Assembly: GCA_003214355.1 (NCBI GenBank)
Contig: QCLS01000002.1
Span: 1-64,000 of the forward strand
Origin: Prochlorococcus sp. AG-418-C09
Lineage (GTDB): Bacteria; Cyanobacteriota; Cyanobacteriia; PCC-6307; Cyanobiaceae
DNA length: 64,000 nt
Reading direction: 5' to 3'
In this document: piece after piece, positions 20,688 to 23,716 of the stretch
Layout: each line of letters starts with the position of its first letter
Numbering within the stretch: position 1 is the stretch's first letter
Program-made: the position numbers and the translations under genes
The notes under the pieces: model-generated
What the model was told of the DNA's origin: nothing
The model's input: the letters and a program-made list of their open reading frames with translations, nothing else
Databases searched by the model: none

Positions 20688-20933
20688 ATGAGCACAGAAA
20701 CTTTAGCTTTAACTAATGAAAATGTAGAAAAGGTACTTGACGAGCTTAGACCATTTCTGATATCCGACGGAGGGAATGTTGAAATTGCTGAAATTGATGG
20801 TCCCATAGTCAAGGTAAGATTACAGGGTGCATGTGGAAGTTGCCCAAGTAGTACTATGACTTTAAAGATGGGAATTGAAAGAAAATTAAAGGAGATGATC
20901 CCTGAAATTAGCGAAGTTGTTCAAGTATTATAA
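20688..20933 (+). CDS. NifU-like C-terminal domain protein (Fe-S scaffold/carrier)
   Basis: 81-aa stand-alone NifU C-terminal (Nfu) domain. It has the start [20 protein letters not shown] and the cluster-binding CGSCPSST (Cys49 and Cys52). Such proteins carry [4Fe-4S] clusters to apoproteins and in cyanobacteria are essential for photosystem I cluster supply. Size and motifs are exactly as expected. It is monocistronic as far as the sequence shows. Confidence 0.94.
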
Positions 20934-21235: not shown

Positions 21236-21342
21236 CTAAATTCTAGAATTAAGAGGAATACTTAAGAAAAGTAATAAAAAAAAATTTACTTTAAAATATA
21301 ATTAAGCAAAAATTAAATTTTCTCTTAACTAGTGCAAGTATC

Positions 21343-21372
21343 TGGACATTCCAGAGTGACTATGTTTATAAT
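21343..21372 (+). promoter_or_regulatory. Sigma70-type promoter of the DUF4278 unit, with a palindrome over the -35
   Basis: A -35-like TGGACA (21343-21348) and a consensus -10 TATAAT (21367-21372) are separated by 18 bases, predicting a transcript start near 21379, exactly where the first hairpin of the leader begins. The -35 is embedded in a perfect inverted repeat, TCTGGA-CAT-TCCAGA (21341-21355), which could be an operator. The regulator is unknown. Confidence 0.6.
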
Positions 21373-21378
21373 AATTAT

Positions 21379-21450
21379 GTAGCAACAGCTACATTTTCGT
21401 TCACCCTTTTTGGGCGCAGTTCGAGCTATACCAGGGAACGGGGGATAGCC
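21379..21450 (+). ncRNA. Pseudoknotted leader resembling the glutamine-II (downstream-peptide) riboswitch
   Basis: The leader opens with a hairpin GTAGC/GCTAC (21379-21383 with 21388-21392). It then forms P1 CGTTC (21398-21402) with GAACG (21436-21440), enclosing P2 CCC/GGG (21404-21406 with 21412-21414). GCTAT (21425-21429) pairs with ATAGC (21445-21449) across P1, giving an H-type pseudoknot. This layout, the cyanobacterial host and the short downstream peptide gene fit the downstream-peptide motif, shown to bind glutamine. The match is from memory of the consensus; no covariance search was run. Confidence 0.65.
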
Positions 21451-21467
21451 GTTTTGTTAACCTAATC

Positions 21468-21641
21468 ATGACAACACTTACTTACAGAGGAAAAGCCTAC
21501 GTTCAAAACAAAGAAGTTTCTAATAAGAAACTAGTTGAACTAACCTACAGAAGAAACGTTTACAAATCAAGGCAGAACAGTGCTTCTTCAAACGATGAGA
21601 AAGCTGAATTAAACTACAGAGGTATTAATTACCAGAAGTAA
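21468..21641 (+). CDS. DUF4278 family peptide, 57 aa
   Basis: 57-aa peptide made of three imperfect repeats of the L-x-YR(G/R)-x-x-Y type: LTYRGKAY at the start, LTYRRNVY in the middle and LNYRGINYQK at the end. This repeat is the hallmark of DUF4278, common in cyanobacteria and of unknown function. The middle repeat has Arg in place of Gly. It is the only gene of a compact unit with its own promoter, structured leader and terminator, and may be controlled by glutamine level. The ATG lies 18 bases beyond the leader pseudoknot with no clear Shine-Dalgarno. Confidence 0.85.
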   Translation: MTTLTYRGKAYVQNKEVSNKKLVELTYRRNVYKSRQNSASSNDEKAELNYRGINYQK

Positions 21642-21658
21642 GTTTTACAAAACCTCAC

Positions 21659-21685
21659 CACCTCCTTTTAGGGGGTGTTTTTTTT
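21659..21685 (+). terminator. Rho-independent terminator
   Basis: CACCTCC (21659-21665) pairs with GGGGGTG (21671-21677) around the loop TTTTA, with one T-G wobble, and is followed by eight T (21678-21685). It lies 17 bases after the DUF4278 stop and separates this unit from the methyltransferase gene. It is the clearest intrinsic terminator in the window. Confidence 0.9.
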
Positions 21686-21720: not shown

Positions 21721-22515
21721 ATGATTAATTCATGCTGTAATCTTTCTACCCAAGACAATAATAAAAAAACGATAGATCACAAAGAGGTGATACAAAATAG
21801 ATATGGATCTGCAGCAATAGAGAAAGAAAGTTGTCTATGTAATCCTGTTCAATTTGATACTAGATATTTAAAAGCTATTCCTCCTGAAATTATTGAAAAA
21901 GACTATGGCTGTGGTGACCCTACAAAATGGGTTAAAAAAAATGATTACGTCCTGGACCTTGGCAGCGGAAGCGGGAAGAATGCCTTCATTTGTTCACAAA
22001 TAGTTGGAAGAGATGGATGGGTAATTGGAGTTGATCAGAACATAGATATGCTCTCTCTTGCAAACAGATCAAAACATTATGTATCAAAGCAAATAGGTTT
22101 TCAAAACACCGAATTCGTTCATGGATCAATAGAAGAACTTGATGCACTAGATAAAAACTCAAACTTCATAATCAAGGATTCATCCATAGATATTATTCTA
22201 AGCAATTGTGTACTAAATCTAGTTAATCCTGATTCGAGAGTAAATCTTTTAAAGAATATCAAAAGAGTACTGAAAATTAATGGAAGAATTGCAATAAGTG
22301 ACATTGTATCCAACAAAAGAGTTCCTCTTCATATGCAAAATGATCCTGATTTGTGGAGTGGCTGTATTAGTGGGGCTTGGTATGAACCAGAATTAATAAG
22401 TGACTTTAAATGCCTAGGCTTTAAAAATCTGAAATTTGCGGAGAGGAGCTCTGAACCTTGGCGTGTTATCGAAGACATCGAATTTCGAACAGTTACTTTA
22501 ACTGGAAATCTTTAA
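21721..22515 (+). CDS. ArsM-like SAM-dependent methyltransferase
   Basis: 264-aa class I methyltransferase with SAM motif DLGSGSGKNAF (79-89) and acidic GVDQNIDML (103-111). Arsenite methyltransferase hallmarks are visible: SNCVLNLV (Cys163), SGCISGAW (Cys215), and upstream cysteines in CLCNPV (38/40) and YGCGDP (64). Their spacing resembles the four-Cys set of algal ArsM as I remember it. It could instead belong to an arsenosugar-type or related pathway. A class V aminotransferase follows 25 bases later, an unusual pairing for arsenic detoxification, and no arsR or arsB is nearby. Confidence 0.75.
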   Translation: MINSCCNLSTQDNNKKTIDHKEVIQNRYGSAAIEKESCLCNPVQFDTRYLKAIPPEIIEKDYGCGDPTKWVKKNDYVLDLGSGSGKNAFICSQIVGRDGWVIGVDQNIDMLSLANRSKHYVSKQIGFQNTEFVHGSIEELDALDKNSNFIIKDSSIDIILSNCVLNLVNPDSRVNLLKNIKRVLKINGRIAISDIVSNKRVPLHMQNDPDLWSGCISGAWYEPELISDFKCLGFKNLKFAERSSEPWRVIEDIEFRTVTLTGNL

Positions 22516-22540: not shown

Positions 22541-23716
22541 ATGAGTGAAAAGATAAGATCATTATTTCCAAGTTTAGAAAATAAATTTTATTTTAATTAT
22601 GGTGGACAAGGCCCAATGCCTAGTCCGTCTTTGAATGCAATCTTAGAAAGTTGGAATAGGATTCAAGAATTAGGTCCTTTCACAGAAAAAGTCTGGCCTT
22701 ATATCTCCCAAGAAGTTATTAAGACCAAACAAATACTATCAAGACATTTAGGTGTTTCAGTTAAAAATATTGCTTTAACTGAAAATACAACTTCAGGAAT
22801 GGTATTACCTCTTTGGGGTATGAAATTTGATATTAATGATGAATTATTGATTAGTGATTGTGAACATCCAGGAATAGTTGCTGCTGCAAGAGAATTTTGC
22901 ATAAGAAATGATATAGTTTTAAAAATATTTCCCATCCAAAAAATAACCCCTTTAAATAATGAGACATTCATTAATGAGATAAAAAAATATATAAACATTA
23001 ATACAAAAGCCCTTATAATTTCACACATATTATGGAACTTTGGATTTAAGGTACCTTTGAAGGAATTATCTCAAGAGTTAAAACAATACAAAAATGAGAA
23101 TTATTTACTTGTTGATGGGGCCCAAAGTTTTGGGCATATAAAAATTTCTGAAGAGGTTAAGTATTCAGACTTGTATGCTATTACTTCACATAAATGGGCA
23201 TGTGGACCAGAAGGATTAGGTGCTATTTATGCTTCTGATAGGTTCTTAAGTATTACAAATCCTACAATAATTGGTTGGAAATCACTGAAAAGAGAACAAG
23301 GTATTTATGAACCTTATCAAGATCTACTACATGAAGATGCAAGAAAATTTGAAATCGCTACTTCATGTATACCCTTACTCGCTGGATTAAGACAATCTAT
23401 TTCATTATTAGAAAATGATATTACTGAATATGAAAAGCACTTAAAAATAATTAAGCTTAGTAATTATTTATGGTTTGAATTAAAGCAATTTAAGAATATA
23501 AATTTGATTCTAAAGGACAAACTTTCGAATGGGATTGTAAGTTTTGATATAGAAAACATTTCTGACAAAAATAAAATAGTACATGCATTAGGGGAAAAAA
23601 ACATTTGGATTAGACTTGTTGAAGATCCAAAATGGTTTAGGGTTTGTATTCATCAAATAACTACTCAAGAAGAAGTTGGTTTGTTAATCGATGAGATTAG
23701 AAAACTAATTACATAG
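22541..23716 (+). CDS. Class V aminotransferase-fold PLP enzyme
   Basis: 391-aa member of the cysteine desulfurase/isopenicillin-N-epimerase superfamily. It has TENTTSGMVLPLW for phosphate binding (80-92), VDGAQSFGHI with the PLP-pairing Asp192, and the Schiff-base Lys218 in TSHKWACGPEG. There is no obvious catalytic Cys loop in the C-terminal third, so a desulfurase role is doubtful. It probably acts on an amino acid or a modified one. It is downstream of the ArsM-like gene in the same direction and convergent with the SDR gene. Confidence 0.82.
   Translation: MSEKIRSLFPSLENKFYFNYGGQGPMPSPSLNAILESWNRIQELGPFTEKVWPYISQEVIKTKQILSRHLGVSVKNIALTENTTSGMVLPLWGMKFDINDELLISDCEHPGIVAAAREFCIRNDIVLKIFPIQKITPLNNETFINEIKKYININTKALIISHILWNFGFKVPLKELSQELKQYKNENYLLVDGAQSFGHIKISEEVKYSDLYAITSHKWACGPEGLGAIYASDRFLSITNPTIIGWKSLKREQGIYEPYQDLLHEDARKFEIATSCIPLLAGLRQSISLLENDITEYEKHLKIIKLSNYLWFELKQFKNINLILKDKLSNGIVSFDIENISDKNKIVHALGEKNIWIRLVEDPKWFRVCIHQITTQEEVGLLIDEIRKLIT

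Follow-up and report, generated by a model that had tools for sequence, protein, structure and literature searches.

The window, by which we mean the whole 64,000-nucleotide stretch of Prochlorococcus sp. AG-418-C09 analysed here, carries on its forward strand a small unit made up of a promoter-like site, a palindrome, a riboswitch aptamer, a short open reading frame (ORF) and a terminator, and the genes that flank this unit are ordinary neighbours. The features are as follows.

20688-20933: NifU-like protein, upstream of the unit
21343-21372, forward strand: sigma-70-like promoter with -35 box TGGACA (21343-21348), 18-nt spacing and -10 box TATAAT (21367-21372)
21379-21392, forward strand: NtcA-type palindrome GTAGCAACAGCTAC, an exact match to GTAN8TAC, over the presumed transcription start
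21395-21449, forward strand: Glutamine-II (type 2 glutamine riboswitch) aptamer, RF01704, with P1 CCC/GGG, pseudoknot CGUUC/GAACG and P2 GCUAU/AUAGC
21450-21467, forward strand: 18-nt spacer between aptamer and start codon, in which no terminator was found and no Shine-Dalgarno motif is visible
21468-21641, forward strand: 57-aa DUF4278 protein with three TYRG-like repeats
21659-21685, forward strand: intrinsic terminator CACCTCCTTTTAGGGGGTG followed by T8 (stem 21659-21677, T8 up to 21685)
21721-22515: methyltransferase, downstream of the unit
22541-23716: class-V aminotransferase, downstream of the unit

A covariance-model search of the whole window (cmscan) matched Glutamine-II at 21395-21449 on the forward strand with 59.6 bits against a cut-off of 33, and the E-value of 6.6e-12 for the window excludes a chance match; the alignment spans model positions 1-60 and contains the conserved core CGUUCA..CGCA..GGAACGGGG. 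This search bears out the first-pass annotation, made from the letters alone, which had noted a resemblance to glutamine-II RNAs. The three helices that it had described pair as stated (CGTTC 21398-21402 with GAACG 21436-21440, CCC 21404-21406 with GGG 21412-21414, and GCTAT inside 21423-21429 with ATAGC inside 21444-21449), but their names had been shuffled, since in the published structure CCC/GGG is P1, CGUUC/GAACG is the pseudoknot and the third helix is P2. The aptamer lies in the 5' untranslated region of the short ORF, whose ATG lies 18 nt downstream, and the corresponding gap is 19 nt in the five orthologues compared. Folding energies of single sequences, to which the pseudoknot is invisible, did not distinguish the host and phage RNAs examined from shuffled sequences (z = -0.13, 0.43, -1.44 and -0.47, the last for 21376-21500 of the window).

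The promoter proposed earlier around TATAAT was recovered with 11 of 12 consensus matches; the match is weak by itself, because shuffled sequences yield as many such sites (2 found, 1.9 expected), and a TATAAT-like box is also present in those orthologue leaders that are readable in the right orientation. A transcript start downstream of 21398 is suggested neither by the -10 box at 21367-21372 nor by the published start of yfr6, transcription of which is reported to begin ~20 nt upstream of the motif (PMC2864571). The 8-T terminator was likewise found where it had been proposed, and terminator-like sites are more frequent in the stretch than expected (4 versus 0.4).

Between the -10 box and the aptamer lies an element absent from the first-pass annotation, a palindrome at 21377-21394 that encloses GTAN8TAC, which we take to be the NtcA consensus. 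To place it in context, leaders were collected from the top hits of a genus and a phylum survey, many of them closely related (89 loci, less 4 identical ones and 6 that were not located by the regular expression). GTAN8TAC begins 17-23 nt upstream of the aptamer in all 79 of these distinct best-scoring host loci, at exactly 19 nt in 64 of them, as compared with 196 occurrences in 15,800 shuffled leaders; the six units that had not been located carry it as well, giving 85 of 85. The box of the window lies at a place relative to the promoter that is fixed in the best-scoring units. Among 20 lower-scoring host units (43-58 bits, L240-L259), chosen by hand from the phylum sample hits, the box was found in 11, at -18 to -24 in six and at -34 to -37 in five, and an exact GTAN8TAC was absent within 45 nt in the other nine. 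We therefore discarded the notion of an NtcA box in every type 2 unit and limit the claim to the best-scoring ones, so NtcA coupling is no rule for the whole riboswitch class; some lower-scoring Glutamine-II units, differing in their NtcA boxes, may respond to nitrogen otherwise. A further candidate site at 21338 (GTATCTGGACATTC) was set aside, since it departs from the consensus by one base and visual comparison showed no conservation in the orthologue leaders. The box at 21379-21392 strengthens the earlier suggestion of proximity to the NtcA network, and the position of the palindrome over the presumed start site fits repression under nitrogen shortage.

The encoded protein agrees with the 57-aa triple-repeat DUF4278 peptide originally described. 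It matches PF14105 with 44.3 bits (cut-off 25.3), DUF4278 covers residues 2-55, no other Pfam family was matched and three L-[TN]-Y-R-x-x-x-Y repeats are visible. A search of solved structures gave weak matches only, for the window protein (E about 0.003) and for the phage peptide described below (E about 0.5); those of the window protein are stretches of Gloeobacter Glr2806 and Glr1262. PirA was rejected as a relative, because the match of the window protein is to DUF4278 and PirA is reported to be absent from marine picocyanobacteria (PMC8092223).

In all these respects the window unit is a complete and ordinary example of a kind known from marine picocyanobacteria, in which a type 2 glutamine riboswitch precedes a DUF4278 gene. 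This aptamer class is described as restricted to these organisms, associated with DUF4278 genes and activating expression upon glutamine binding in a Prochlorococcus strain (PMC6316151); the crystal structure paper describes it, from a GFP fusion, as an ON switch that is probably translational (PMC6698751). Weinberg et al. 2010 reported the downstream-peptide motif and its link to yfr6, and in their account a gene preceded by such an RNA appears lowered in nitrogen starvation (PMC2864571). With the RF01704/yfr6 class the window shares the aptamer sequence and helices, a short ORF behind the aptamer, more than one copy per genome and restriction to its own family in the phylum sample; nothing essential differs, and P1 of the window copy is short. 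The PMM1846 unit of Prochlorococcus MED4 is reported with the same three elements, a glutamine riboswitch, DUF4278 and an NtcA motif (PMC6316151), a likeness taken from that description. Synechocystis gifB/IF17 has DUF4278 and a glutamine-sensing leader in common with the window (PMC6316151); its aptamer is type 1, whereas that of the window is type 2, and IF17 has a further part behind its N-terminal DUF4278, the part by which IF17 membership is judged and of which the window protein, consisting of DUF4278 alone, has no counterpart.

RF01704 was found in 118 of 121 genomes of the genus, among them all 42 good genomes, and in 33 of 292 genomes of the phylum sample, all 33 belonging to the window's own family. 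The 57-aa protein was matched in 112 of the 121 genus genomes (E up to 1e-4, partial matches included). The window's assembly has two Glutamine-II copies; the second (G000:C1:121932-121994, L002; 57.6 bits) has CGUCC/GGACG replacing CGUUC/GAACG, a GTAGCAATTGCTAC box upstream, and behind it a 33-aa peptide with one LTYRG repeat, which is presumably yfr6-like.

Taken with the ON logic of the type 2 riboswitch, the host unit very probably places a small nitrogen-related protein under two concordant controls, NtcA and glutamine. With nitrogen in good supply, glutamine would stabilise the CGUUC/GAACG pseudoknot and the 57-aa protein would be translated; when nitrogen is short, glutamine would drop and the switch would return to OFF, and NtcA with 2-oxoglutarate would bind the palindrome over the start site and block transcription. 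The product would hence be made in nitrogen excess, with the two sensors in agreement. This model builds on the aptamer, the NtcA-type box, the promoter-like and terminator-like sites and the ORF found in the window, takes glutamine binding and ON switching from the published work, and adds three elements that we infer, namely translational control, NtcA repression at the box and the target of the protein. As for the last, the window protein in all likelihood is akin to the N-terminal portion of IF17 and serves nitrogen assimilation as a small modulator or partner, and it could perhaps act on glutamine synthetase or one of its partners; a role as direct glutamine synthetase inhibitor is not established, because DUF4278 is reported to be dispensable for the action of IF17 (PMC6316151).

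Two other readings of the host leader were weighed. The palindrome at 21377-21394, which would come first in the transcript, folds into a hairpin of 7 bp, so that it might be a stabilising or protein-binding 5' mRNA hairpin and no NtcA operator; in keeping with this, a 5-bp stem is kept in 74 of the 79 host units, one of which has a compensated GTATC/GATAC form. Yet GTA..TAC is kept in all 79 despite the stem being broken in five, a published unit of the same kind is reported with an NtcA motif (PMC6316151), and the box at -34 to -37 in five lower-scoring units makes a 5' RNA hairpin less likely there, judging from the sequences; we regard the hairpin as unlikely and the operator as the better explanation. 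Control by transcription attenuation instead of translation has the general precedent of other riboswitches on its side, but there is no terminator-like site in 21450-21467, the best terminator follows the ORF, and the spacing from aptamer to AUG is short and nearly constant among the orthologues compared, which together render it very improbable. Translational control fits these same features, the 18- or 19-nt gap and the lack of a terminator-like site between aptamer and ATG.

A second DUF4278 match in the window's assembly led beyond the host. It is a 35-aa peptide on contig C3 (G000:C3), where a gene for the T4-type major capsid protein gp23 (473 bits) is also found; for a 3-kb piece around it, cyanophage P-HM2 is the nearest match. 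On these two grounds C3 was taken as a T4-like cyanophage contig, probably from an infected cell or a co-sequenced phage, so its loci (L004, L229 and L231) should be left out of host gene counts for the assembly. A similar peptide occurs in 28 phage records (23 named as cyanophages and 5 single-cell 'marine virus' records), 17 of which were analysed, without the 9 records that by their names are RefSeq copies and without MA01 and ME01. The gene is unannotated in the GenBank records of MED4-213 and P-RSM3 (L094 and L099), though the ORF is open, and a manA RNA (RF01745, 162-193 bits) lies near the DUF4278 gene in six phage loci (L097, L099, L100, L105, L106 and L107). The window's own 57-aa protein finds no phage, and the idea of a window-type riboswitch or protein in phages was dropped; the aptamer only weakly matches Synechococcus phage S-CBS2 at 70801-70849 (E 0.6), a possible Glutamine-II relative.

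Upstream of the phage peptide lie two units, each consisting of CGTTCATCC followed by GGACGCA..GGAACGG with small variations, and the P2 loop of each is, in different phages, either short or occupied by a whole ORF. The extent of this arrangement was assessed with a 48-nt junction query, which gave matches in 132 of 50,697 phage records (blastn, E up to 1), 129 of them over at least 80% of the query; the records comprise 124 cyanophage by name and 8 'marine virus', with some duplicates among the matches listed. A junction pattern that requires GACGCAAGTA, GGAACGG and CGTTCA, and so fixes the P1 strands and one or two positions in the 3' strands of P2 and puts no constraint on the loops, was found at at least 120 viral loci, and among 300 genomes of the window's family the exact pattern occurred in one only, on C3 of the window's assembly. 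Composite leaders are present at L092-L108, L109-L228 and L232-L238, and at L004 on the reverse strand. A stem of at least 6 pairs lies just upstream of unit 1 in 69 of 90 distinct phage leaders (e.g. L104, L113 and L117), as compared with 5 of 90 shuffled ones; these stems have several different sequences, some with a -10-like box such as GGGTATAATACCC, and look like varied operators. GTAN8TAC is present in 17 of the 90.

The loops were analysed at 98 loci (80 of the at least 120, the 17 phages and L004), with the remaining 40 held out. Unit 1 was readable in 97 and unit 2 in 89 of the 98, and loop lengths fell into two classes with none between: 9-45 nt (62 in unit 1 and 27 in unit 2) and 136-221 nt (35 and 62). 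All 97 long loops are ORFs, in which the ATG follows CGTTCA by 3-15 nt and the stop codon falls between -13 and +18 nt relative to the 3' half, and the two alternative forward frames were open in 0 of 188 cases; the same ORF definition was satisfied by 8 of 1650 and 33 of 3050 shuffled loops, or by 19 of 1650 and 135 of 3050 with the ATG kept. The 40 held-out loci contain 38 long loops, of which 37 are ORFs. The sole exception comes from L216 (6504-6825), whose leader comprises three aptamer units with an ORF-length loop in the middle one; the script read across one of these units. Seven of eight further named phages parse into two units, DSL-LC02 being the one that does not: P-SSM2, S-SSM7, S-CAM3, S-TIM5, Syn1 and S-SM2 have loops with ORFs, and P-TIM68 has two short loops.

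Loop ORFs are included in the GenBank annotation of several phages (e.g. PHM2_179 and PHM2_180 of P-HM2), and they look selected as proteins: the median dN/dS, calculated on whole ORFs including the ends overlapped by the aptamer and over non-independent pairs, was 0.18 (43 pairs) and 0.23 (82 pairs), and all values were below 1. For each kind, one representative hit a PHROG whose function is unknown (phrog_6471 and phrog_504), and all 97 nested ORF proteins form one single-linkage cluster at E 1e-3; the unit 1 and unit 2 kinds may be distant relatives. The gene downstream of the leader encodes a TYRG-type peptide in 85 of the 89 loci (four without an ORF), in 31 of 33 held-out loci and in 6 of 7 further named phages, and a Shine-Dalgarno-like motif precedes it in 79 of the 85. 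No such motif was found before any of the 35 unit 1 ORFs or before 27 of the 62 unit 2 ORFs; the remaining 35 unit 2 ORFs have a Shine-Dalgarno-like tetramer within the preceding aptamer sequence. In 67 of the 97 ORF loops the extended P2 places two or more start-codon bases opposite a pairing partner (a figure without a control). The anatomy as such, coding ORFs within P2 loops and widespread among cyanophages, can be held with high confidence.

Compared with the glnA RNA (type 1, RF01739), the phage composite shares the CGUUC/GAACG P1, the UCC/GGA P2, the AAGUA and GAA strands and P3; it differs in consisting of two units, which in the best fold are connected via P3 and have an inner GAACG-loop-CGUUC hairpin, in having whole ORFs in P2 loops, and in CGC replacing CGG. 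RF01739 reached at least 35 bits in 3 of 16 phage loci and 3 of 8 others (L004 33.9; the rest lower or unmatched). Most ORF-bearing phage units are left unmatched by Rfam, for which the gene-long loop may be the reason. Pairing in P2 is kept across the ORFs. In register, the P2 strands enclosing ORF loops form standard pairs in 82% of positions for unit 1 (17 distinct strand sets) and 91% for unit 2 (30); sliding one strand lowers this to 31-51% and 38-58%, respectively. Cells with a change on both sides numbered 11 and 27 in register, and 9 and 16 at slide -2. Locus-matched flanks beat permuted flanks (0 of 2000 permutations per unit, a control that ignores relatedness). The strand of unit 1 after CGCAAGUA moreover pairs with the strand of unit 2 before GAAGG, as AGUCG/CGACU, AGUCA/UGACU, GGCGG/CCGCC and others (18 distinct; score 12.2 versus 10.1 permuted, 0 of 2000, relatedness uncorrected). 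The phage leader appears to be a composite of two type-1-like glutamine aptamer units.

How the two units are joined can be read in two ways, as a nested double three-way junction in which both share one P3 helix, or as a plain tandem of two complete aptamers or intercistronic hairpins with no helix across the ORFs. The RF01739 alignment of S-H34 runs through both units and places a 44-nt insertion in P3 (43.7 bits), which speaks for the nested form, as do the P2 pairing kept across the ORFs and the co-varying strands of the two units; the tandem, in turn, can point to Rfam matches of single units near the cut-off (L239 35.6, L237 35.4 and L232 35.1 bits) and to the 157 doublet glutamine riboswitches reported as known (PMC9481103). 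The unconstrained consensus fold of 83 distinct composites, 21 of them ORF/ORF, has P1 formed by the outer strands, both P2 helices and the inner GAACG-loop-CGUUC hairpin, the loop of which is 3-5 nt in 83 of 83. P3 was predicted in neither the 83 nor the 21 ORF/ORF composites and appeared only in the 15 short/short ones, a point in favour of the tandem. In these 15 short forms the nested fold was lower in energy than the tandem in every case and was the free optimum in 10, against the tandem, with the energy of the tandem pseudoknot uncounted. Folded alone, the leader of S-N03 (L096) had the nested optimum, and those of S-H34 and MC09 folded otherwise, as the tandem would allow. Searches for variants of CGTTC/GAACG, in P1 or the inner hairpin, yielded 0 and 1 contigs; since the P1 strands are invariant, their partners are not demonstrable by covariation, which leaves these two helices without such proof and the choice between nested and tandem unproved. 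The nested double junction fits the data best, and we consider the tandem rather unlikely.

The phage leader may act as a composite glutamine aptamer in which folding and translation of the enclosed genes are mutually exclusive; in this proposal, tentative though we take it seriously, the ligand and the logic are inferred. The exclusion would follow from the start codons that face P2 partners and from the Shine-Dalgarno-like tetramers within the aptamer. On this proposal the DUF4278 peptide that T4-like cyanophages themselves encode would be preceded by a remodelled glutamine riboswitch with protein genes within its P2 loops, and the phage could swap the enclosed small proteins against the following DUF4278 peptide according to host glutamine. 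Glutamine riboswitches in T4-like cyanophages receive mention in the literature (PMC9964418, PMC9602691 and PMC9004378), and in the titles, abstracts and passages of the open literature searched there is no report of ORFs inside a riboswitch aptamer or helix. The new part is this phage arrangement outside the window, as the type of the window unit is already published.

The window unit documents a known nitrogen switch and adds that the best-scoring type 2 units have an NtcA-type box in almost the same position, so that two nitrogen sensors look wired together in these, though not in every lower-scoring one; the role of DUF4278 proteins stays a testable question. If the phage reading is true, viruses that infect abundant phototrophs of the ocean would have whole genes enclosed by a riboswitch helix, and the expression of viral genes would be linked directly to the nitrogen status of the host.
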